Below are positions 3,197 through 39,484 of a stretch of DNA of 64,000 bases, one piece after another. The stretch comes from Sneathiella glossodoripedis JCM 23214 (GTDB lineage Bacteria > Pseudomonadota > Alphaproteobacteria > Sneathiellales > Sneathiellaceae), in NCBI RefSeq assembly GCF_000616095.1, contig NZ_BAMS01000001.1, forward strand, positions 1,178,001 through 1,242,000, read 5' to 3'. The notes below the pieces were generated by a model, which saw only the letters and a program-made list of their open reading frames with translations, had not been told where the DNA came from and searched no databases. Numbering within the stretch: the first letter of the stretch is position 1; each line of letters begins with the position of its first letter. Position numbers and translations under genes: made by a program.

Positions 3197-3768
3197 TTAA
3201 GCGATTGCCTTATGCAGAAAAATCAGTTTAGCAGCTCCGTATTTACGAGGTTGCATCTGATTCAGACCGGCTATTTGAGGAAGGGTTTCCTTGGCTGCTA
3301 ATTCGACGACTACGATGGTGTGATCTGAAATCCAGCCATTTTCGAACAGTGCCTGCAGGTAGGTGCAGCCAAATCCTGTTGGTATGGCGGGTCCATCAAG
3401 ATGAGATCTACTGGTGCGGCTGCCATTCCGGGTGAGATGGCACTTCTGTTCAGAATGCTCGCCTTTTGCTGGGCCCCGATCAAGGCAACATTCGATTTTA
3501 TTAACTTCAGGCTATCCGGGTGATTATCCATGAAAGTTGCATGCGTTGCACCGCGAGAGAGCGCTTCAATCCCCAGAGCACCAGTGCCCGCGAAAACATC
3601 AAGGACCTTCATCCCAATTGGTGCAGGGCCATTGGATGTCCGATAGTCTGAGCTATGAGCCAATATATTGAATAGGGCTTCACGCGTTCGATCCGCTGTA
3701 GGGCGTATCCGCTTGTCATCGGGAAGCTGCAGGCGCTTACCTTTATTCTGCCCTCCAACGATGCGCAT
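3197..3768 (-). pseudogene. rsmD: 16S rRNA (guanine966-N2)-methyltransferase RsmD, frameshifted in this sequence
   Basis: RsmD methylates G966 of 16S rRNA using S-adenosylmethionine. The intact part, 3768 down to about 3377, has the start MRIVGGQNKGK, RPTADRTREALFNIL, the SAM motif VLDVFAGTGALGIEALSRGA and the catalytic LILMDPPY. Right after DPPY the frame changes: the open frame ends early at 3310, while the +1 frame continues as GFGCTYLQALFENGW and ends in KYGAAKLIFL, a normal RsmD C-terminus, stopping at 3197. One G restored in the GG run at about 3375-3376 would give a continuous protein of about 190 residues, the usual family length. Its ATG overlaps the stop of the pseudouridine synthase gene by 1 nt. 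Confidence 0.9.
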
Positions 3769-5550: not shown

Positions 5551-6009
5551 ATGGATTTTGAACTGACAAATTACATGGAAGAGGCGCTGCATACCGCCGA
5601 ACTGTCCGCCAGACGCGGTGAAGTTCCTGTCGGGGCAGTTGTAGTGGATAACAAAACCGGTCGAATTGTTGCAAAGACAGGCAACCAGATGATTGGCAGA
5701 TTTGATCCAACAGCACATGCAGAGATGCTGGCCATTCGGGCCGCTGCGGGAATGGTGGGTAGTCAGCGTCTGGTTGATTGCGATATGTATGTAACACTGG
5801 AGCCGTGCCCAATGTGTGCTTCGGCAATCTCACTTGCACGTATCCGTCGCCTGTATTTTGGGGCTTTTGATCCCAAAGGAGGCGGTGTGGAGCATGGTCC
5901 CAGAATTTTTGACCAATCAACATGTCATCATAAACCTGAAATTTATGGTGGCATTGGTGAGGCACAAGCAGGTAGACTGCTAAAGGAATTCTTTGCGTCA
6001 CGACGCTAG
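5551..6009 (+). CDS. tadA: tRNA-specific adenosine deaminase TadA
   Basis: Converts adenosine to inosine at the wobble position of tRNA-Arg(ACG). The 152-residue protein has the complete zinc deaminase site: TAHAEM, with the zinc His and the proton-shuttling Glu, and LEPCPMCASAI, with the two zinc cysteines. The length is normal for TadA. The 3' end is 39 bp upstream of the acyl-CoA dehydrogenase on the same strand, with a GGGGAG ribosome binding site between them. Confidence 0.95.
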   Translation: MDFELTNYMEEALHTAELSARRGEVPVGAVVVDNKTGRIVAKTGNQMIGRFDPTAHAEMLAIRAAAGMVGSQRLVDCDMYVTLEPCPMCASAISLARIRRLYFGAFDPKGGGVEHGPRIFDQSTCHHKPEIYGGIGEAQAGRLLKEFFASRR

Positions 6010-6048: not shown

Positions 6049-7251
6049 ATGAATTTCGAATATTCAGACAAAGTGAAAGATTTGCAGGCACGTGTGCAGG
6101 CATTTATGGACGAACATGTTTACCCTGCCGAAGAAATTTTTGAAGAGCAGGTTAATGAAGGTGATCGTTGGCAACCAACAGCAATTGTTGAAGAGTTGAA
6201 AGAGAAGGCTAAAGCCGCGGGTCTTTGGAATCTGTTTTTGCCGGAAAGTGACCGCGGGGCCGGGCTCACAAACCTGGAATATGCACCGCTTTGCGAAATC
6301 ATGGGCCGTGTACATTTTGCGCCTGAAGTTTTCAACTGTTCCGCTCCTGATACAGGTAATATGGAAGTCTTTGAACGCTATGCGAACGAAGAGCTGAAAA
6401 AGAAATGGCTGGAGCCATTGCTGGCCGGTGAAATTCGGTCTGCATTTGCTATGACAGAACCACGGGTCGCCTCATCTGATGCGACGAATATCGAAAGTGA
6501 TATCAAGCGTGACGGCGATGAATATGTCATCAATGGCAGAAAATGGTGGACTTCCGGTGCGATGGATCCGCGTTGTAAAGTTCTCATTTTTATGGGTAAA
6601 ACTGACAAGACAGCCCCTACACACAAACAGCAATCAATGATTGTTGTTCCGATGGAAACACCGGGTATTACAATCCGCCGGTTCCTGCCTGTCTTTGGGT
6701 ATGATCATGCGCCACATGGGCATGCGGAAGTTGATTTCGAAAATGTGCGCGTACCTGCGGATCATATCCTTCTCGGTGAAGGGCGTGGTTTTGAAATTGC
6801 ACAAGGACGGCTTGGCCCGGGACGTATTCACCATTGCATGAGGCTGATCGGTGTAGCAGAGCGTGCGTTGGAAAAAATGTGTAATCGGGTTGAAAATCGG
6901 GTTGCGTTTGGCAAAAAAGTTTCAGAGCAGACCGTAACATTGGAGCGCATTGCAGAATCGCGCGCGATGATCGAACAGGCTCGCCTACTTACTCTTAAGG
7001 CCGCGTACATGATGGATACGGTTGGCAATAAAGAAGCTAAGGCTGAGATTGCAATGATCAAGGTGGTAGCACCGAACATGGCTTGTAAAGTCATCGATTG
7101 GGCTATTCAGGCGCATGGCGGTGGTGGCGTTACCAGCGATTTTGGTCTGGCCGCTGCGTATGCCGGAGCCCGCACACTGCGTCTTGCTGATGGTCCTGAT
7201 GAAGTTCATCGTAACCAGATCGCACGTCTTGAGCTGAAAAAATATCGCTAG
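6049..7251 (+). CDS. ACAD11-like acyl-CoA dehydrogenase
   Basis: A 400-residue FAD acyl-CoA dehydrogenase. Seen in order: [17 protein letters not shown] (FAD/substrate loop), [45 protein letters not shown], and a C-terminal [11 protein letters not shown] where ordinary members have a YEGT-type active-site loop. From memory of the families, these blocks match the dehydrogenase half of animal ACAD11/ACAD10 much better than short- or medium-chain enzymes. ACAD10/11 are fused to an aminoglycoside-phosphotransferase-like kinase; here the kinase is separate, encoded just downstream on the opposite strand in two copies. Likely role (inference): handling of 4-hydroxyacyl-CoA after phosphorylation. 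A strong hairpin terminator follows at 7289. Confidence 0.93.
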
Positions 7252-7288
7252 GCAGCGCATAAAGAAGTCAAAATTGAACTTTAGATTA

Positions 7289-7318
7289 AGCCCCGGCAAT
7301 AAACCGGGGCTTTTTCTT
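7289..7318 (+). terminator. rho-independent terminator after the acyl-CoA dehydrogenase
   Basis: A stem AAGCCCCGG / CCGGGGCTT with a short CAATAAA loop is followed by a run of T. It lies about 40 bp after the dehydrogenase stop codon and separates that gene from the small ORF at 7382. Confidence 0.9.
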
Positions 7319-7346
7319 TGCATCTGCCGGGTGGCTCTTATATACA
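7318..7346 (+). promoter_or_regulatory. possible sigma70-type promoter for the small ORF at 7382
   Basis: TTGCAT at 7318-7323 and TATACA at 7341-7346 are separated by 17 bp, directly after the terminator and about 35 bp before the ATG. This is recognised by eye from consensus similarity only; it overlaps the end of the terminator T-run. Confidence 0.35.
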
Positions 7347-7381
7347 ATCGCTACTTCGGCGTTGTTTAACTAGGTGATAGA

Positions 7382-7612
7382 ATGTTCAAGACAGCAGGTT
7401 GGATCGTGGCAGCATTAGTTCTGGTTGCGATTGGCTTCCAATATAAATATGAAAGTCTTGATCCATGTGAATGGCTTACACAGGAAATGGCGCTATCTAC
7501 CGGTTTACCCAGTATTCAGGGGCTTGGGGCTGCAGCCGATACCGTAATGAGCAAAGGTGAGTGTTTGCAAAACTGGATGGACCTGCGTGTAAAGGACGCA
7601 GAGAGCAAATGA
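7382..7612 (+). CDS. small membrane-anchored or secreted protein, unknown function
   Basis: A 76-residue ORF I do not recognise. The N-terminus is a single hydrophobic segment, WIVAALVLVAIGF, which could be a signal peptide or an anchor. It is followed by a short polar domain with two cysteines, in DPCEWL and GECLQNW, that could form a disulfide in the periplasm. Support for its being real: it is flanked by terminators on both sides, has a possible promoter and a plausible GGTGATAGAATG start context, and its own terminator overlaps its stop codon. It sits between the ACAD11-like gene and the convergent kinases, but nothing ties it to them functionally. Confidence 0.65.
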   Translation: MFKTAGWIVAALVLVAIGFQYKYESLDPCEWLTQEMALSTGLPSIQGLGAAADTVMSKGECLQNWMDLRVKDAESK

Positions 7613-7640
7613 GCCGGATTTCTCCGGCTCTTGTCTTTTA
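7611..7640 (+). terminator. rho-independent terminator of the small ORF
   Basis: GAGCCGGA and TCCGGCTC form an 8-bp stem with a 4-nt loop (7611-7630), followed by TTGTCTTTT. The stem begins within the stop codon of the small ORF. Confidence 0.8.
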
Positions 7641-8694
7641 GATTTTCTTTTCTGCTTTGAGAATATTCTTTGCGCCCAAATCAGCTAGCATTCGGGCGAA
7701 TGCCCCATATGTTTTTGCTTTGTCGGAGCTAGCATTCCCATCTAGACCGCGTTTGTAGACACCTTGAACAATCGCGGCCAAACGGAAAAAAGAAAACGCG
7801 ATGTAAAAATGCCAGTTTTCAATTCCGTCACGTCCAGTGCGCTTGCAATATGCATCAATATACGCCTGCTCTGATGGTATTCCGCTTTCTGCATAGTTTG
7901 TATTTACCAGTCCACCTGAGACGGGATGCATAAAGTGATAGGTCATGCAGTTGTAGGCAAGATCAGCCAAAGGATGTCCAAGTACATAACTCCCAGTCAA
8001 GAACAGCGACAACCTCAGGCTTGGTTGGGTGAATAATCATGTTTTCCAGACGATAGTCACCGTGGCATATGGTATTTTCCAGATGCTTGGGCATATTTTC
8101 CGGGAGCCATTCGATGAGTTTTTCCATCGTTGGCACTTCTTCCGTTTCCGAAGCTCTGTATTGCTTGGTCCAACGTCCGATTTGGCGTTCAAAATAGTTG
8201 CCCTGCTTACCAAAATCAGAGAGTCCGGCGGCTTCAATATTGACGTTATGCATTTTAGCCAATGTGTCATTCATGGCATCGTAAATGGCCGCTCGTTCAT
8301 CAGCTTCCATACCCGGAAGTTCAGGCTTTCGCAAGATGCGCCCTTCCACCTTTTCCATAATGTAGAAAGGTGTTCCGATGATGTCATCGTCTTCACAGAG
8401 TGTATATGTCTTGGCAACCGGTACGTCAGTATCCTGCAAGGCGGACATGATCCGATACTCGCGATCAACCGCGTGGGCGGACGGCAAAAGGACCCCAGGT
8501 GGTTTTTTGCGCATCACATATTCCTGATCCGGAGTATGTAATAAAAATGTGGGGTTGGATTGGCCGCCTTCAAACTGGCTGACGGTGAGCGGACCCTTAA
8601 ATCCGTCTACATTTTCCTGCATATATTGATACAGGTTGCTTTCGTTAAATACATGCGCCGGTCTTACCGGAGTCACTTCCGAATTGTCTGACAT
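7638..8694 (-). pseudogene. ACAD10/11-type kinase (aminoglycoside phosphotransferase fold), copy 1, frameshifted
   Basis: A stand-alone protein matching the N-terminal kinase half of ACAD10/11. The front part (8694 to about 7986) has QFEGGQSNPTFLL, YVMRKKPPGVLLPSAHAVDR, the catalytic loop CHGDYRLENMI and VLDWEL. Then the frame breaks: it runs into a stop at 7963, while another frame picks up LGHPLADLAYNC and continues to 7638. The paralogue just upstream reads through the same point as LDWELSTLGHPLAD. Restoring two bases (for example a second AC in TGTAC(AC)TTGG near 7980-7986) rejoins both parts into about 350 residues. It lies 34 bp downstream of the intact copy on the same strand, so both are probably co-transcribed. 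Confidence 0.85.
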
Positions 8695-8728
8695 AATGCT
8701 ACCCGTTTTTGTTATTTTCGCTATTGGG

Positions 8729-9796
8729 TTATCTGTTTAGGATTAACTCTACCTGCTGCCAACCTTTCTTGGCAAGAGGCTTGGCTTTTTTACCCATATC
8801 AACCGCGTGTTGACTGCTGGCAGTGCCGTCTACAACACGCCCCATAATCCCTTGTAAAATAGCAGCGAGGCGAAACATGTTGTATGCCATATAATAATCC
8901 CAATGGGGAATTTCGCTGCGGCCAGTGCGGCTGCAATATAATTGCACATATTCTTCTTCTGCCGGGATTCCCAAGGACTTGAGGTCAAGCCCATAAAGTC
9001 CGCGAAAGAGTTCTGGCTCAAGTCGCCAAGTCATACAGTGATAAGAGAAATCAGCGAGTGGGTGACCAAGGGTGGAAAGTTCCCAGTCCAGTATCGCAAT
9101 TACTTTTTTGGTGTCGCGGTCTATGATTGTGTTATCCAGTCGATAGTCACCATGGACAATGGATGTCTCATCACCTGCAGGAATGTTTTTAGGGAGCCAT
9201 TCCATGAGTTTGTTCATTTCTGGAATGGTTTCGGTTTCAGAAGCTTTATACTGTTTGGTCCATCGATTTATCTGACGGGCCAGATAATCTGTGGGTTTTC
9301 CAAAGTCTTCCAGACCGGCTGCTTTATAATCTACTTGATGTAACCGCGCGATTGAAGCATTCATGGAGTCAAATGCCGCTGCACGCTGATCGTTTGTAAA
9401 GTGAGGCAAAGCCGGATCCCACTCGATATCCCCATCGACGAAATCCATTACATAAAACATGGTCCCGATGACTGTCTCATCTTCACACAGGCACCATGTT
9501 TTCGGTACCGGTACTCCGCTTCCGCTTAAACCAGAGAGGACTTTATACTCGCGATCCACCGCATGGGCGGAGGGAAGTAATTTTCCAGGCGGTTTCTTTC
9601 GAAGGACATATTTTTTGTGCGGTGTGATCAGGAAGTAGCTAGGGTTGGATTGCCCTCCTTTGAACTGACGTACTTCCAAGGGGCCAGAAAAACCCTCGAT
9701 ATTTTTTTCCAGATAATTTTTGAGTGCAGTTTCATCAAGCTTGTGTGTTTCCTGCACTTCCATCGTTCCGGAAAACTGTGCCGAACTGTCAGTCAT
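8729..9796 (-). CDS. ACAD10/11-type kinase (aminoglycoside phosphotransferase fold), copy 2, intact
   Basis: A 355-residue kinase-fold protein. It has QFKGGQSNPSYFL and YVLRKKPPGKLLPSAHAVDR in the N-lobe (nucleotide-binding and Lys region), the catalytic loop VHGDYRLDNTI and the metal-binding LDWELSTLGHPLADFSYH. In animal ACAD10/11 this domain phosphorylates the 4-hydroxyl of 4-hydroxyacyl-CoA, and in bacteria LvaA does the same for 4-hydroxyvaleryl-CoA. That activity is inferred here. It clearly resembles the neighbouring copy along its whole length, so a tandem duplication is likely. It is 14 bp downstream of purD on the same strand, so it may be read from the purD promoter. Confidence 0.88.
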   Translation of the reverse strand: MTDSSAQFSGTMEVQETHKLDETALKNYLEKNIEGFSGPLEVRQFKGGQSNPSYFLITPHKKYVLRKKPPGKLLPSAHAVDREYKVLSGLSGSGVPVPKTWCLCEDETVIGTMFYVMDFVDGDIEWDPALPHFTNDQRAAAFDSMNASIARLHQVDYKAAGLEDFGKPTDYLARQINRWTKQYKASETETIPEMNKLMEWLPKNIPAGDETSIVHGDYRLDNTIIDRDTKKVIAILDWELSTLGHPLADFSYHCMTWRLEPELFRGLYGLDLKSLGIPAEEEYVQLYCSRTGRSEIPHWDYYMAYNMFRLAAILQGIMGRVVDGTASSQHAVDMGKKAKPLAKKGWQQVELILNR

Positions 9797-9810: not shown

Positions 9811-11091
9811 TTATTTTTGTTTTTCCCGTTCTATGGCTCTCCAGCCGATATCAGAGCGGCAGAAACCATCTGGCCACTCAATGTCTTTTATAGCGGCATA
9901 GGCTTTGCCAGCAGCATCCGTAACAGTAGATCCAAGCGATGTGATGCCCAATACCCGGCCGCCGGTTGCGAGAATTTTTTCACCATCTCGCTTGGTGCCC
10001 GCATGCAGAACGTAAACATCGTCGTGAGTGGCAGCCTTGTCCAGGCCCTTAATTTCGGTATTCTTTTTGTAAGATGAAGGATACCCATTTGCAGCCATCA
10101 CAACCACCATTGCAACGTCATCTGCCCAGTCCAATGTGATATCACTCAACTGGCCGTTTGTTGTTGCCAGCAATGCAGGTAGTAAGTCACTTTTTAAACG
10201 CGCCATCAGAACCTGAGCTTCTGGATCACCAAAACGGACGTTGTATTCTATGAGTTTGGGGCCCTCAGCGGTAATCATCAGGCCGGCATACAAGACACCT
10301 GTGTATGGACACCCTTGCTCCGCCATCGCTTTGACCGTCGGTCTAATAATACGTTCAAGGGTCAGTTCAACCATCTCGTCAGTCATCACTGGAGCGGGTG
10401 AATAGGCCCCCATACCCCCTGTATTGGGGCCTGTGTCACCATCCCCAACCCGCTTGTGATCCTGCGCGGTTGCAAGCGGCAGTATATGCGTGCCATCTGT
10501 CAGTACAAAAAAGCTGGCTTCTTCGCCTTGCATAAATTCTTCAATTACAATTTCCGCACCAGCATTCCCAAACATTCCGCCCAGTATCTCATCGACCGCT
10601 TTCTCAGCATCTGCCATCGATTGGGCAATAATCACGCCTTTGCCCGCTGCAATACCATCAGCCTTGATGACGATAGGAGTGGATTGTGTTTTTAAATATT
10701 CTTTGGCTTTACCGGCGTCAGAAAAACGCTCATATGTGGCGGTCGGAATGTTATAGTCGCGGCACAGGTCCTTCATAAACCCTTTCGATCCTTCCAGCGC
10801 TGCCGCTGATTTGCGGGGGCCGAAGGCCGCAATCCCTGCGGCAGTCAGATCATCGACAAGACCTGCAACGAGGGGTGCTTCGGGTCCGACAACAACGAAG
10901 GAAATATCGTTGCTATTGCAGAATTCGATCACGGTATCAGAATCGTCAGTATTCAGTGAAATACATTGTGCGAATTCAGCGATCCCCCCATTACCGGGTG
11001 CACAGAATAGAGTGCCAATTTGAGAAGACTTGCCAAGCGCCCAGCAAAGGGCATGTTCACGGCCACCAGAGCCAATTACCAGTACATTCAT
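9811..11091 (-). CDS. purD: phosphoribosylamine-glycine ligase PurD
   Basis: Second step of de novo purine synthesis: joins 5-phosphoribosylamine and glycine using ATP. The 426-residue protein has the expected N-terminal VLVIGSGGREHALCWAL, the ATP-grasp region GSKGFMKDLCRDYNIPTA, the DHKRVGDGDTGPNTGGMGAY loop and EYNVRFGDPEAQVL, the magnesium-binding block. Full length. It is divergent from xseA across about 100 bp. The kinase genes follow closely downstream on the same strand. Confidence 0.96.
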   Translation of the reverse strand: MNVLVIGSGGREHALCWALGKSSQIGTLFCAPGNGGIAEFAQCISLNTDDSDTVIEFCNSNDISFVVVGPEAPLVAGLVDDLTAAGIAAFGPRKSAAALEGSKGFMKDLCRDYNIPTATYERFSDAGKAKEYLKTQSTPIVIKADGIAAGKGVIIAQSMADAEKAVDEILGGMFGNAGAEIVIEEFMQGEEASFFVLTDGTHILPLATAQDHKRVGDGDTGPNTGGMGAYSPAPVMTDEMVELTLERIIRPTVKAMAEQGCPYTGVLYAGLMITAEGPKLIEYNVRFGDPEAQVLMARLKSDLLPALLATTNGQLSDITLDWADDVAMVVVMAANGYPSSYKKNTEIKGLDKAATHDDVYVLHAGTKRDGEKILATGGRVLGITSLGSTVTDAAGKAYAAIKDIEWPDGFCRSDIGWRAIEREKQK

Positions 11092-16438: not shown

Positions 16439-17935
16439 ATGGGTTTACCGCTGCCGGGTAACCCCAGTTTTTCCCAGCTTTCAGTAATTTTGTTGACGAC
16501 TTCTTCGCTCATTTGGATTTTTTCACCCCATTCCCGGTGGGTTTCAGGGGGCATTTTATTTGTTGCATCCAATGCGAGCTTCCCGCCTAATCCGGATTCT
16601 GGGGATGCAAAATCCAGATAATCTATCGGCGTATTTTCAATTTTTGTGATGTCGCGAACAGGATCCATCCGTGTCGATACCGCCCACATGACATCTTTCC
16701 AGTCTCTAGCATCTATGTCGTCATCCACGATAATCAGAAACTTCGTATACATGAACTGGCGCAAAAATGACCATGCTCCCATCATTACGCGTTTAGCATG
16801 CCCCGGGTACGCCTTTTTCATCGATATGACAGCAATCCTGTAGCTGCACCCTTCGGGAGGGAGCCAAAAATCAACGATTTCCGGGAACTGTTGCTGAAGT
16901 AGAGGAATAAACACCTCGTTTAAAGCTTCGCCGAGGACACTGCTCATCGGGCGGCCGACCGGTGAATGTTGACAGATAGACCGGGTTTTTACGCATTGTT
17001 ATTGCGGTAACTGTAAAAACCGGAAAGGGTTCAACCGAGTTATAGTAACCCGTGTGATCGCCATACGGTCCTTCATCTTCGTAATCGTCAAGCGAGACAT
17101 ATCCTTCAAGAATAATCTCGGCAGTGGCGGGAACTTTCAGAGGAACCGTTTTACAATCAACCAGTTCCACCTTTTCCCCCCGTAAAAGGCCAGCGAACTG
17201 GTATTCAGACAATGTATCGGGAACTGGTGTCACCGCTGCCAAAATTGTTCCGGGATCTGCGCCAATAACAGCGGCGACAGGCAGTGGTTCGGTTTTTTCT
17301 TTTTTCCATCGTTGAAAATGCTGGGCTCCACCGCGATGTTTGAGCCATCGCATGATTGTTCTGTTCTTACCCAGTTTCTGCATTCGGTAGATGCCAAGAT
17401 TAAAATTATCGGCTTTTTCATTGCCCGGCCCTTTTGTCACGACCAAAGGCCAGGTGATCAATGGGGCCGGCTCCCCGGGCCAGCAAGTTTGAATGGGTAA
17501 ATTATTCAAGTCGATTTGATCACCAGTTAGTACCACCTCCTGACAAGGGGCGCCGCGAACGGTTTTGGGTCGCATTGACATCGCATTTTTAAGCACTGGT
17601 AGCATACCAAGTGCTTCTCGAATACTGGCAGGTGGCTCAGGTTGCCTCAGAAATGCAAGCGTTTCTCCTACTTCCCGTAGTTCTTCAGGTTTGCGTTGCA
17701 TACCCATAGCGACACGATCAACTGTCCCAAACAAATTGACAAGAACCGGCATTTTTGCGGGTTCGCCATGCTCGTTAATCGGATTTTCAAAAAGAACTGC
17801 CGGTCCTTGTTCCGCGAGTAATCTTGTCTGAATTTCTGTCATTTCAAGGTCGGTTGAAACTGGTTCGCTCACACGCACCAATTTGCCTTCCTTTTCCAGC
17901 AGGGCCATGAAATCTCTTAACGATGCATAAGGCAT
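16429..17935 (-). pseudogene. ubiD: UbiD 4-hydroxy-3-polyprenylbenzoate decarboxylase, frameshifted in this sequence
   Basis: Prenylated-FMN decarboxylase of ubiquinone synthesis. The first part (17935 to about 16945) has the start YASLRDFMALLEKEG, the prFMN region NFNLGIYRMQ, and EDEGPYGDHTGYYN, up to FTGRPPDEQ. The second part resumes in another frame as [21 protein letters not shown], then [20 protein letters not shown] and GLDATNK-like LALDATNK. The join falls inside a block that is contiguous in E. coli UbiD (TGRPPDE..VLG). Near 16940-16944 two bases are missing or one is extra. Restored, the protein is about 500 residues, normal length. It is directly downstream of ubiA, the preceding pathway step. 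Confidence 0.9.
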
Positions 17936-30056: not shown

Positions 30057-31560
30057 TGGCGGAAATTTTATCGGCATATAAACAGCTGGAAGAAAAGTTC
30101 CATAAAATTTCAACTCTTTCCGGAGCTGCCGCTATTTTAGGGTGGGACAACGCGGTCATGATGCCAGCTGGCGGCGCGGATGCGCGTGCGGAGCAGTTGG
30201 CAACTCTTGGCGTAATTAGTCATGAGATGTTGTGTGATTTGCAGGTGTCCGACCTTTTGGATGAAGCCGAAGATCAGCCGCAGAATTTATCCGCTTGGCA
30301 GTTGGCTAATTTGCGTGAAATGCGCCGGGATTGGAAACATGCTACCGCCGTGAGTTCCGATTTGGTGGAAGCGTTATCCAAAGCGACGTCAAAATGCGAG
30401 ATGATCTGGCGGCAGGCAAGAGAAGATAATGATTTTGAAAGCCTTCGAAATAGCCTTGAAGAGGTTGTTCGCCTTACGAAAATACAGGCTGACGTGAAAT
30501 CTGAGGCCTTTCAATTATCACCTTACGATGCGTTGCTTGACCAGTACGAGCCCGGCTGTTCTGAAGCGCAAATAGACATTCTGTTCGATGATCTGGAAGA
30601 GTTTCTGCCACCAATATTGCAACAGGTACTGGACCGTCAGGAGGGCGCTACAGCAGCAGTAGCCCCAAAGGGTCCATTTGATATAGAAAAGCAGAGGAAG
30701 CTGGGCTTGCATTTTATGGAAAAGCTTGGCTTTGATTTCAATCGTGGGCGTCTGGATATCAGTCATCATCCCTTAACGGAGGAATCCCCGATGATGTCAG
30801 ATTGACCACCCGATATGACGAGGCTGATTTTACACAAAGTCTTATGGGCACTCTGCACGAAACCGGACATGCACTTTACGAGCAGAATTTACCTCTCAAG
30901 TGGCGGGGGCAGCCGGTTGGGTTGGCTCGCGGGATGGCGTTGCATGAGAGCCAGTCTCTATTGGTCGAAATGCAATTGTCCCGCAGTGAAGCCTTTCTTG
31001 AATACGCATATCCTTTGTTAGAGGATGTTTTTGGTGACAAATCTGAAGCGTGGTCATTTGAAAATATCAAAAAACTATATCATCGTGTTGAACGAGGATT
31101 GATCCGGGTCGATGCCGATGAAGTTACCTATCCACTTCATGTTATCCTGCGCTATCGACTTGAAAAACAGCTTTTAAGTGGTGATTTACCGGTAGCCCAA
31201 TTACCGCAAGCCTGGAATGACGGGATGCAGCAGCTTTTGGGAGTTCGTCCCCAGACAGATAGTATGGGATGTCTGCAGGATATTCATTGGCCCAGTGGAG
31301 CAATCGGTTATTTTCCAACCTATACGTTGGGAGCATTATCCGCCGCGCAGTTTTTCACTGCTGCCAATGAGAAACTTCCCGAATTGACGCAGGATGTTAA
31401 AACTGGACGATTTGAGAAATTGACAAACTGGATGGCAGATAACATTCATCAAAGTGCCAGTTTCGAGACAACCGACGAAGTCTTGAAACGGGTAACAGGT
31501 CGCCCGCTGTCAACAGAAGCTTTTAAAAAGCATCTCATACAACGCTATTTGAAAGACTAG
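30056..31560 (+). pseudogene. M32 family carboxypeptidase (Taq type), frameshifted in this sequence
   Basis: Metal-dependent carboxypeptidase, normally about 500 residues. The first part (30056 to about 30780) carries ILGWDNAVMMPAGG and runs to DISHHPLT, then misreads into a stop at 30803-30805. The second frame gives GIPDDVRLTTRYDEADF, followed by the catalytic zinc motif LHETGHALYEQ, and runs to 31560. HP..GG.P.DVR.TTRYDE is contiguous in the family, so one base is missing in GGAGG near 30778-30782. All catalytic parts are otherwise present. Located directly after surf1 on the same strand. Confidence 0.9.
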
Positions 31561-37769: not shown

Positions 37770-38516
37770 ATGTCAAAAAAGATGTTTTCTGCTGAGATCA
37801 AGCAACTCAAAAACGGGATTTCTGGTAATTCGGATGGTGAAAATCAGGGCGGGGGTATAAGTCAGGAGCAATATGAAGAATTGCTGGAGGCCATTAACTC
37901 TGTAAAAGCCGATATCGCGGAAAATGCTTCGAAGGTTGAAGAAACACCTCAGTCCATGAGCGAAAAAATGCTCGAGGACTTCAAAAAAGAATTTGCAGAC
38001 TCACTAGAGCTTAAGTCGGAACTTGAAGAATTGTCTCGAGTTATCATGGATACGCGCCGGGAGATAACTTCAATCAATTCTAATGATAAAGGCGCGAAAA
38101 TTCACGCGATGACAGATCAGCTTGATGCTGTTGTTGCCGATACAGAGACAGCAACTAATGAGATTCTTGCCGCTGTAGAGACGATTGAGGATAAGAATGA
38201 AAGTCTTGAGTTGAATGCAACGGACCCCGATGAGCTGGAAATTACAGAGACGATCAGCAAGGCCGTGATGAAAATATATGAAGCTTGTAACTTTCAGGAC
38301 ATTACAGGACAGAGAATTTCCAAAGTTGTAGGAACGCTTAAATTTGTCGAAGATCGTATTCAGGCCATGATTGAAATTCTTGGCGGCGAAGATCAGCTCA
38401 GTGCACTTGAAGGTATCGAGCAGGAAATTCAGAAAGATGGCGACATTGAACTGAGCGGTCCGCGTGCGGAAGGTCAGGAAATTTCACAGGATGAAATTGA
38501 CGCATTGTTTGACTAA
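37770..38516 (+). CDS. cheZ: CheZ-like chemotaxis protein phosphatase
   Basis: A 248-residue, mostly helical acidic protein. The core block ACNFQDITGQRISKVVGTL contains the DxxxQ catalytic pattern of CheZ phosphatases, in which Asp and Gln dephosphorylate CheY-P. The last residues, ISQDEIDALFD, form the amphipathic tail that binds CheY in CheZ; a similar motif occurs at the N-terminus of FliM. The middle is a long coiled helix. No che operon is adjacent, so it is an orphan locus. Its 3' end overlaps thrB by 4 nt. Confidence 0.85.
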   Translation: MSKKMFSAEIKQLKNGISGNSDGENQGGGISQEQYEELLEAINSVKADIAENASKVEETPQSMSEKMLEDFKKEFADSLELKSELEELSRVIMDTRREITSINSNDKGAKIHAMTDQLDAVVADTETATNEILAAVETIEDKNESLELNATDPDELEITETISKAVMKIYEACNFQDITGQRISKVVGTLKFVEDRIQAMIEILGGEDQLSALEGIEQEIQKDGDIELSGPRAEGQEISQDEIDALFD

Positions 38517-39484
38517 GATGTTAAACCGTAAGCGCTAACAGATGTTACGTCCTGATGGAATCTGATTTTTTTAAGATATTCTGACGGATCTTTCGGTTTA
38601 ACCAAGGCGCCATCAACCTGATTCAGCCAATCAAATAATCTGGTGAGGTAAAATCTCATGGCAGCCCCTCTGCAAAGGAGTGGCAAGGCACCTAATTCCT
38701 GAACAGAGATTTCCCTTCTTTTTTGGTAAGCGTTTAATAACTTGCGCGCTTTTGTAATATTGAAGCTGCTATCTGTTTCGAAACACCAGGCATTCATACA
38801 GATCGCCAAGTCATATGCCAGAAAATCGGTGCAGGCGAAATAGTAGTCAATTACACCGCTTACTGCGTTATTGAGGAAAAAGATGTTGTCCGGAAATAGA
38901 TCAGCATGAATAACTCCGGTGGGCAAATCCTGAGGCCAGTGCAATTCCAAAAACTCCAGCTCAGATTCAATTTCTTTTAGTTCAGCTGTTGAAAACTGGC
39001 CCTCGGCATTTGACGCTTTGCATCTATTGAACAGATTGCGCCAACTTGTGACATCAAGAGCATTATTACGTGTCAGCTTGAAATCTTGTGCCGCAAGGTG
39101 AAGGTCTGCAAGTGTATCGCCCAAAAGCGCACAATGGTCAGGCGTGATCCGGCGAATGGAACGCCCTTCCAGAAATTGAATAATGGCAGCAGGACGCCCT
39201 GCCACTCTCGTAAGTGACTGTCCTGATTTGGTCGCAATTGGTGTGGGGGAGACAAAGTTTTTTGCCGCCAGATGTTCCATCAAGCCCAGAAAAAACGGTA
39301 AATCATTTTCTTCCACACGTTTTTCGTAAAGCGTTAAAATGTAGAAACCAGCTTCCATGTGAAGTAAAAAATTTGAGTTTTCTACACCTTCGGCAATGCC
39401 CTTGCAGGACAGAACTTCGCCCAGATCATACTGAAGCAATAAGTCGTCGAGCTCTTCGTCCGAAATATCGGTATATACCGCCAT
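38513..39484 (-). CDS. thrB: homoserine kinase, ThrB type II (APH fold)
   Basis: Phosphorylates homoserine in threonine synthesis. The 323-residue protein has the aminoglycoside-phosphotransferase fold: GIAEGVENSNFLL in the N-lobe, the catalytic loop GVIHADLFPDNIFF and the metal loop GVIDYYFACTDFLAYDLAI. This is the alphaproteobacterial/pseudomonad ThrB, unrelated to the GHMP-type enzyme of E. coli. ispH lies 22 bp upstream on the same strand, the usual ispH-thrB order. The product feeds ThrC, encoded at 31666. Confidence 0.93.
   Translation of the reverse strand: MAVYTDISDEELDDLLLQYDLGEVLSCKGIAEGVENSNFLLHMEAGFYILTLYEKRVEENDLPFFLGLMEHLAAKNFVSPTPIATKSGQSLTRVAGRPAAIIQFLEGRSIRRITPDHCALLGDTLADLHLAAQDFKLTRNNALDVTSWRNLFNRCKASNAEGQFSTAELKEIESELEFLELHWPQDLPTGVIHADLFPDNIFFLNNAVSGVIDYYFACTDFLAYDLAICMNAWCFETDSSFNITKARKLLNAYQKRREISVQELGALPLLCRGAAMRFYLTRLFDWLNQVDGALVKPKDPSEYLKKIRFHQDVTSVSAYGLTS

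Follow-up and report, generated by a model that had tools for sequence, protein, structure and literature searches.

A probable split ACAD10/11-type kinase and dehydrogenase system with two kinase genes in Sneathiella glossodoripedis

In the genome of Sneathiella glossodoripedis JCM 23214 two kinase genes, K1 and K2, converge on the gene of an acyl-CoA dehydrogenase, which raises the question whether these genes are a stand-alone counterpart of the animal proteins ACAD10 and ACAD11 and whether both kinases are made. We analysed a window of 64,000 nucleotides (contig NZ_BAMS01000001.1, positions 1,178,001 to 1,242,000), the relevant features of which are collected in Table 1. We suggest, with a probability of roughly 0.8, that the locus encodes a split bacterial ACAD10/11-type 4-hydroxyacyl-CoA kinase and phospho-eliminating dehydrogenase for burning 4-hydroxy fatty acids, and that K2 most likely owes its frame break to a sequence error. 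The proposal draws on homology, residue conservation, co-occurrence and gene neighbourhood, and from these we infer all catalysis, the identity of the substrates and the reading of the gene runs as operons.

Table 1. Features of the kinase/dehydrogenase locus (positions in the window)
Feature	Position	Strand	Remarks
Presumed tadA-like deaminase gene	5551..6009	+	39 nt upstream of dehydrogenase gene, same strand
ACAD10/11-type dehydrogenase (ACAD1)	6049..7251	+	400 aa; from ORF list, similarity search and tree
Terminator-like hairpin with T-rich tail	7288..7312	+	3' of dehydrogenase gene
Inverted repeat, terminator-like on both strands	7611..7630	.	just past end of kinase run
Second kinase (K2), ACAD10/11 kinase type	7638..8694	-	as assembled two ORFs, 7963-8694 and 7638-8012
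Frame break in K2	7974..7982	-	directly past DWE(L) motif; probable sequence error
First kinase (K1)	8729..9796	-	intact, 355 aa; catalytic D217, N222; R174
Presumed purD-like gene	9811..11091	-	14 nt upstream of K1, same strand

An earlier note on this DNA had assigned the dehydrogenase to the ACAD half of ACAD10/11, and this assignment agrees with the open reading frame, with the motifs quoted there, which lie at residues 243 ([20 protein letters not shown]) and 377 ([11 protein letters not shown]), with the similarity scores and with the tree. Matches to the ACAD11 chains reach 486–491 bits (E values against mouse ACAD11 of 2e-146 and 1e-145), whereas the best ordinary acyl-CoA dehydrogenase, a short-chain enzyme, scores 147 bits. 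The identity is 57% to mouse ACAD11 over 390 amino acids and 33% to the human short-chain enzyme (SCAD), and in a tree built from hand-picked loci ACAD1 is placed with ACAD11 and away from SCAD; the grouping with ordinary short-chain dehydrogenases that would speak against such a link is absent. According to an excerpt of PMC12440821, Arg626, His634 and Arg637 of mouse ACAD11 belong to the phosphate site and Asp753 is the catalytic residue, and changes in the phosphate-site region of ACAD10/11 ablate the dehydrogenase step so that the phospho-intermediate accumulates. The mouse residues R626, R631, H634 and R637 correspond to R254, R259, H262 and R265 of ACAD1 and D753 corresponds to D381; both proteins have the same segment [13 protein letters not shown] and the same catalytic Asp. 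A strict pattern of both motifs fits 36 of the 42 tree rows including ACAD1 and fails for SCAD. Thus, by sequence closeness as well as by its phosphate-site residues ACAD1 is a dehydrogenase of the ACAD10/11 (LvaC) type. Terminator-like hairpins, two of which are given in Table 1, are not more frequent in this region than in shuffled sequences (7 found, 7.1 expected).

K1 carries the motifs YVLRKKPPG and VHGDYRLDN in an intact reading frame and matches the kinase half of ACAD11 with 276–280 bits (E values of 3e-82 and 4e-81; 41% identity), in line with what had been claimed for this gene. Among the solved kinases, it matches PDB 3dxp (451 bits) and 9o56 (190 bits); the remaining kinases listed score at most 45 bits, macrolide kinases about 23 bits, and no choline kinase passes the threshold of 0.001. 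K2 had been described as a second kinase of this type, and this holds, but the gene is not one open frame, and the motifs of K1 had wrongly been attributed to it as well: K2 has YVMRKKPPG and CHGDYRLEN. The K2 protein of the congener G005 matches ACAD11 with 306–310 bits (among the matches listed at an E cut-off of 1e-20), and the identity between congener K2 and the kinase half of ACAD11 is 44%. The N-terminal piece of the S. glossodoripedis K2 scores 172.6 with the Pfam family APH and 22.9 with the ecdysteroid-kinase-like family (EcKL; cut-off 22), and Choline_kinase stays below its cut-off. Given their near-full-length similarity, beyond that of other APH-fold kinases, K1 and the congener K2 belong to the ACAD11 kinase type, and the fold is settled since solved relatives exist at 41–57% identity. 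By motif match, 38 K1-type and 14 K2-type sequences (52 chosen from 69 kinase rows, aligned with ACAD11) all keep the counterparts of the catalytic residues D220 and N225 and of the substrate residue R176, and R174 of K1 is the equivalent of mouse R176. The kinases also retain an Arg beside a conserved Glu, a candidate for the published R86 with the numbering unmatched. A third APH-fold gene of the window, at 38513–39484, encodes the homoserine kinase ThrB and is unrelated.

Could an ordinary acyl-CoA dehydrogenase simply adjoin unrelated kinases of the antibiotic or choline type by chance? Only the general Pfam labels (APH and Acyl-CoA_dh) score high: K1 and K2 fall into the broad APH fold family and below the cut-offs of Pfam Choline_kinase and the specific NCBIfam aminoglycoside and macrolide models, and none of the three proteins reaches any NCBIfam cut-off. 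However, the lead of the ACAD11 chains over ordinary dehydrogenases exceeds 330 bits, the phospho-site residues are retained in ACAD1, and no grouping with choline or antibiotic kinases is seen, as the ACAD11 half scores 276–310 bits with the kinases compared with about 23 bits for macrolide kinases (K1). In addition, 45 of 142 alphaproteobacterial genomes, that of the window included, have both genes, 3 the kinase only, 2 the dehydrogenase only and 92 neither, so that both occur in 45 of the 50 genomes carrying either (raw genome counts, relatedness ignored). A chance neighbourhood is therefore hardly credible and largely refuted. A dedicated levulinate pathway with the same chemistry, like that of lvaABCDE, also has to be considered. 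LvaA and LvaC of Pseudomonas putida, which we liken by description, are likewise a split 4-hydroxyacyl-CoA kinase and dehydrogenase (excerpts of PMC12440821 and PMC11342911), and the Sneathiella genes follow this logic. Some relatives do have SDR genes near such genes. On the contrary, LvaA and LvaC sit in a levulinate operon, and such neighbours are not seen at the Sneathiella locus: the Sneathiella loci that were read have no SDR-cluster gene next to the pair, inspection of the window by eye shows neither an acyl-CoA synthetase nor an SDR gene adjoining it, and going by putative neighbour labels assigned mostly from the translations, LvaB, the SDR LvaD and the synthetase LvaE have no counterparts here. 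Moreover, an excerpt of PMC11342911 gives 29% identity between the published LvaA and the animal kinase halves, compared with 41–44% between K1/K2 and the half of ACAD11. We regard the levulinate pathway as distinctly improbable. A plasmid match in Cupriavidus H16 was ruled out as an lva operon; the incomplete gene table of the H16 megaplasmid lists no phosphotransferase within 6 kb of the dehydrogenase gene. The locus neighbours are, mostly judging from their translations, presumably purD-, xseA-, tadA-, rluB- and rsmD-like genes, and this housekeeping neighbourhood suggests a general hydroxy-acid clean-up.

The kind of enzyme pair that we favour here, an ACAD10/11-type kinase and dehydrogenase, is already known biochemically from LvaA/LvaC, from Burkholderia orthologues and from ACAD10/11. 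With ACAD11, the one of these two animal proteins that was compared, both halves are homologous over nearly the full length and share the catalytic and phosphate-binding residues. ACAD10 and ACAD11 are single chains, whereas in Sneathiella the kinase and dehydrogenase genes are separate and lie on opposite strands, there are two kinases, and the HAD domain of ACAD10 has no counterpart. The earlier note had correctly recognized both the split architecture and the opposite orientation of the dehydrogenase gene; no fused polypeptide is encoded at this locus. A fused bacterial gene hinted at by open-frame lengths in the genome G035 was rejected, as by coordinates the two stretches lie about 50 nt apart in different frames. 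The Burkholderia kinase Q63VL0 and dehydrogenase Q63VL1 are, as far as their description in an excerpt of PMC11342911 goes, stand-alone enzymes like those of Sneathiella, and this pair substituted for the ACAD10 halves in vitro. In contrast to the Burkholderia pair, Sneathiella has two kinases and convergent genes; in Burkholderia guangdongensis the dehydrogenase gene lies directly behind a K1-type kinase gene, and betaproteobacterial loci with both genes are co-directional and mostly adjacent. In the alphaproteobacterial genomes with both genes, they lie at most 10 kb apart in 24 of 45, 18 of these 24 being convergent, and were not found within 10 kb in 21. PDB 3dxp is a single kinase, 56% identical to K1, placed in the K1 line of a 69-row tree and 99% identical to a Cupriavidus protein, although it is labelled 'putative acyl-CoA dehydrogenase'. 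To our knowledge 3dxp has no tested function.

As assembled, K2 consists of two pieces of 243 and 124 amino acids in different frames, a break near 7980 which the earlier note had overlooked. K2 might be a genuine, very recent pseudogene of this strain, leaving the dehydrogenase to work with K1 only: the break costs about 110 C-terminal residues, its site has no long homopolymer, and a second dehydrogenase paralogue, ACAD2, is likewise broken in the same genome. Nevertheless, six of the 65 window genes compared change frame relative to G005, namely K2 and five others that include rsmD and a gene of the ubiD family (the count takes ORFs with successive pieces in two frames and leaves aside those with internal stops or short ends). 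The pieces of both broken paralogues retain 83–93% protein identity to G005, and the N-terminal piece of K2 shows no acceleration, with an end branch of 0.087 compared with 0.14 for G005 in the first kinase tree and of 0.095 compared with 0.099 in the 69-row tree. The pN/pS of K2, 0.12, is close to the 0.14 of K1 and resembles the values for pairs of intact K2 and K1 genes; these ratios are rough because synonymous sites are near saturation (pS of 0.72–0.88). In addition, K2 is found in 21 of 23 congeners, the matched stretch having one stop in G017 and G021. Since five other genes are shifted as well and K2 lacks signs of relaxed selection, the break most likely stems from a sequence error and a pseudogene is unlikely; thus, both K1 and K2 are probably made. 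It is also conceivable that K2 pairs with ACAD2 and K1 with ACAD1, as ACAD2 (63–66% identity) accompanies ACAD1 in 19 of 23 congeners. We think this quite unlikely, as ACAD2 is located apart from the kinases beside a LysR gene, and the genome of G017, which is listed with 100% completeness, has both kinases and yields no ACAD2 in the 31 of its 35 candidates that were scored. A linked loss of K2 and ACAD2 was rejected too: both look like sequence errors, and K2 of G017 occurs without a detected ACAD2.

The earlier note had taken the kinase as duplicated in tandem. The tandem is real, with 34 nt between the K1 stop and the K2 start and adjacency in 21 of 23 Sneathiella congeners, but K1 and K2 are old separate lines. 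They are 52% identical; the K1-type sequences form a clade (SH-aLRT 99 with 20 rows in a 36-row tree, 96 with 43 rows including one from Rokubacteria in the 69-row tree), and in the 69-row tree Sneathiella K2 joins the second kinases found in other families (SH-aLRT 88). The K2-type rows form a clade in the first kinase tree and none in the 69-row and 36-row trees. In these trees the window K2 was entered as its N-terminal piece only; the first tree leaves out duplicate large-locus rows, the 69-row tree leaves out most congeners and one distant row, and the 36-row tree is a subset. Tandem kinase pairs also occur in the genomes G033, G116, G090 and G144 (with a 1.5 kb gap in the latter) and in the sister genus G024, whose second kinase branches away from Sneathiella K2 in the 69-row tree. 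As the two lines split before the sampled alphaproteobacterial families, a recent tandem duplication was rejected.

Why both kinases are kept adjacent is a matter of speculation. A tentative idea, which we consider somewhat unlikely as a whole, is that each phosphorylates different 4-hydroxyacyl-CoAs (by length or R/S configuration) for the shared dehydrogenase, that the lines predate the sampled alphaproteobacterial families, and that the same split may underlie the animal kinase halves, with the ACAD11 kinase derived from the K2 line. A chain-length difference between K1 and K2, which had also been proposed before, is a conjecture. In cells ACAD10 acts on short and ACAD11 on long chains. For the activities in vitro, an excerpt of PMC11342911 describes C6 and C10 as comparable, and its authors attribute importance to location. 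Of 12 positions separating the lines, ACAD11 agrees with K2 at 7, with K1 at 1 and with neither line at 4, so the residues are suggestive of a K2 origin of its kinase; in the 36-row tree the placements of the ACAD11 kinase with K1 and with K2 have AU p values of 0.53 and 0.58, which favour neither placement.

Returning to the main proposal, the purD-K1-K2 gene run would encode two old paralogous kinases, which would transfer phosphate from ATP to the 4-hydroxyl group of 4-hydroxyacyl-CoAs. The dehydrogenase, an FAD enzyme whose gene follows tadA and converges on the kinase genes, would accept the 4-phosphoacyl-CoA, with Arg254, His262 and Arg265 gripping the phosphate and Asp381 acting as base, and elimination of phosphate would yield a 2-enoyl-CoA for beta-oxidation.

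In many relatives (the GC-rich ones read by tblastn) the purD-like gene neighbours K1 and the tadA-like gene neighbours the dehydrogenase gene; both labels are presumed from the translations. These two neighbours are uninformative on 4-hydroxy acids.

The frame shifts in six window genes relative to the congener call for caution. The analysis places an ACAD10/11-type kinase/dehydrogenase pair in a recurring spot between purD- and tadA-like genes, seen in several lineages of the Alphaproteobacteria (a Pelagibacteraceae contig among them), which suggests that clean-up of 4-hydroxy fatty acids may be an old, core trait there. With its two kinases, the Sneathiella version would lend itself as a simple genetic system for asking if the substrate range is set by the kinases alone.

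The dehydrogenase and the upstream kinase gene, K1, are intact open reading frames which contain the motifs quoted for them in the earlier note. The second kinase gene (K2) had been described as one gene at 7638, but this open reading frame is just the 3′ part of a coding region that as assembled is distributed over two frames (7963–8694 and 7638–8012), with the switch just after the DWEL motif. On the minus strand 14 nt separate purD from K1 and 34 nt K1 from K2, and on the plus strand tadA precedes the dehydrogenase by 39 nt (we take the neighbours from their translations to be purD, tadA, xseA, and rluB). The dehydrogenase and K2 converge with their ends 386 nt apart; two terminator-like hairpins lie between them, and the hairpin count of the region equals the shuffled count. 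Matches to the phosphotransferase (APH) family, to which both kinases belong, number seven across the genome; the third of them in the window is the homoserine kinase ThrB.

Coordinates of the genes and frame changes (positions in the window unless a contig, C, or a locus from a relative, L, is named)
Feature	Position	Strand	Remark
Dehydrogenase	6049-7251	+	intact ORF
K1 kinase	8729-9796	-	intact ORF
K2 kinase, whole coding region	7638-8694	-	two ORFs in two frames
ThrB, third APH-fold kinase	38513-39484	-	homoserine kinase
Frame-change sites vs G005	3340-3409, 7974-7982, 16943-16956, 30664-30790, about 62110, about 63690
ACAD2, second ACAD10/11-type dehydrogenase	G000:C5:58986-59864, L035		outside window
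dddP genes	L067:10596-11924, L051:10122-11513, L052:10370-11698, L053:8079-9413, L091 near 5628
SDR genes	L061:5648-6412, L082:5360-6127		family checked
SDR genes	L087:9553-10389, L085:8812-9900, L050:11899-12666		by clustering

When the window was compared with the syntenic 76 kb of the congener G005, 6 of the 65 matched G005 open reading frames covered successive window pieces in two frames. The affected genes are rsmD, K2, a ubiD-family gene, a gene of a PA0069-family radical SAM protein, a lytic transglycosylase gene, and a gene which we take from its motif to encode an M32-like carboxypeptidase and for which NCBIfam yielded no name. That six genes change frame relative to G005 points to indel errors in the window assembly, which is the simplest reading of the breaks; the lack of a long homopolymer at the K2 break site counts against it. 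The pN/pS values versus G005 are 0.12 for K2 (both pieces pooled), 0.14 for K1, and 0.06 for the dehydrogenase, all of them rough because synonymous sites are near saturation. The end branch of the N-terminal piece of K2 measures 0.087 versus 0.14 for G005 in the 87-row tree and 0.095 versus 0.099 in the reduced tree with a K1 clade of 43 rows. The second dehydrogenase, ACAD2 (about 63–65% identical to the first), is frame-broken in this genome as well and shares ~90% protein identity with G005. In congeners ACAD2 is divergent from a LysR gene and lies near CBS-domain and patatin-like genes.

Among solved structures, K1 scores 451 bits against 3dxp, 276–280 bits against the kinase half of ACAD11, and 190 bits against 9o56, and at most 45 bits against the other solved kinases listed. 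The open-frame G005 copy of K2 gives 431, 306–310, and 218 bits, respectively. The likeness to the ACAD11 kinase half proposed in the earlier note is supported; the macrolide kinases reach ~23 bits with K1. The chosen set of 38 K1-type and 14 K2-type sequences shows no variation at the catalytic Asp and Asn, at the Asp and Glu of the DWE motif, or at the substrate Arg. The PDB names 3dxp, a stand-alone K1-type kinase, “putative acyl-CoA dehydrogenase”; 9o56 (“Aminoglycoside phosphotransferase”) is a more distant relative.

Among solved structures, the dehydrogenase is closest to mouse ACAD11, human ACAD11, and 4hr3 (480–491 bits), followed by short-chain (SCAD) and other acyl-CoA dehydrogenases with at most 147 bits; it is 57% identical to mouse ACAD11 versus 33% to SCAD. 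Its residues R254, H262, R265, and D381 correspond to R626, H634, R637, and D753 of mouse ACAD11, of which, according to PMC12440821, D753 serves as the catalytic base and the other three bind the 4-phosphate. A 42-row tree agrees with the assignment in the earlier note: mouse ACAD11 is placed among the bacterial rows, apart from SCAD.

In the 87-row kinase tree the K2-side set (38 rows, 100/97) stands apart from K1; the fork of the K1 side itself has weak support (94/74). K1 forms one clade in the reduced trees, with SH-aLRT values of 96 (43 rows) and 99 (20 rows), and in both of them the K2-type rows are not a single clade. On either topology the K1/K2 split is older than the sampled families. 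Neighbouring genes of both lines stand in tandem in the genus and in genomes G024, G033, G116, G090, and G144. Of the 12 positions that tell the lines apart, ACAD11 agrees with K2 at 7 and with K1 at 1, and differs from both at the remaining 4; AU tests reject neither ACAD11 with K1 (0.53) nor ACAD11 with K2 (0.58).

Of 23 congeners, 21 have K1 adjoining K2, and the remaining ones, G008 and G016, are fragmented assemblies. In 19 of these 21 the dehydrogenase is convergent and at most 3.4 kb from K2; in G023 it is on another contig than the kinases (kinase contig 4.8 kb), and G014 likewise has it on a separate contig, a long one. In 5 of the 10 congener loci read, window and split G014 left out, a gene for the DMSP lyase DddP follows K1–K2 on the same strand before the convergent dehydrogenase. 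The L067 copy, alone scored, reached 691 bits with model NF043017 (cut-off 600), and among the literature matches listed for Sneathiella and DddP none deals with a link between DMSP lysis and 4-hydroxyacyl-CoA use.

At the match cut-offs used, 45 of 142 alphaproteobacterial genomes (own included) have both kinase and dehydrogenase, 3 the kinase alone, 2 the dehydrogenase alone, and 92 neither (Fisher p 7.5e-31, genomes counted as independent despite their relatedness). Both genes lie within 10 kb in 24 of the 45 (18 convergent, 5 co-directional, 1 divergent). Among the named loci, the best 80 of at least 587 relatives from the genome scan, the dehydrogenase is within the available stretch in 43 (27 of the 46 with full flanks), purD in 29, an SDR gene in 6, and a second kinase in 6. 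Where betaproteobacterial loci have both genes, these run in the same direction and are mostly side by side. In alphaproteobacteria K1 is often preceded by purD, and some loci, including a Pelagibacteraceae contig, have the order purD–K1, then convergent ACAD–tadA. SDR genes are found next to or near kinase or dehydrogenase genes of the same type in other alphaproteobacteria. Plasmid records gave kinase matches in 282 and dehydrogenase matches in 123 at the limits used. In the four plasmid regions examined, a phosphotransferase adjoins the dehydrogenase in Sphingobium and Haematobacter and is ~1 kb off in Deinococcus; in the Cupriavidus H16 region none is listed beside it.

By homology, K1 and K2 would convert the substrate to a 4-phosphoacyl-CoA, from which the dehydrogenase would eliminate phosphate to yield the 2-enoyl-CoA, using FAD without net oxidation. 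This chemistry is published for LvaA/LvaC and ACAD10/11 (PMC12440821; PMC11342911), and the split pair is likewise already in print. A Burkholderia pair substituted for the ACAD10 halves in vitro (PMC11342911). Different chain-length preferences of K1 and K2 are conjectural. The cellular substrates are short chains for ACAD10 and long ones for ACAD11, but PMC11342911 describes the in vitro output from C6 and C10 as comparable and implicates location. No description of the two-kinase arrangement or its synteny was found in the literature listings and paper passages searched. The arrangement in Sneathiella represents a modest refinement of the already published split pair.
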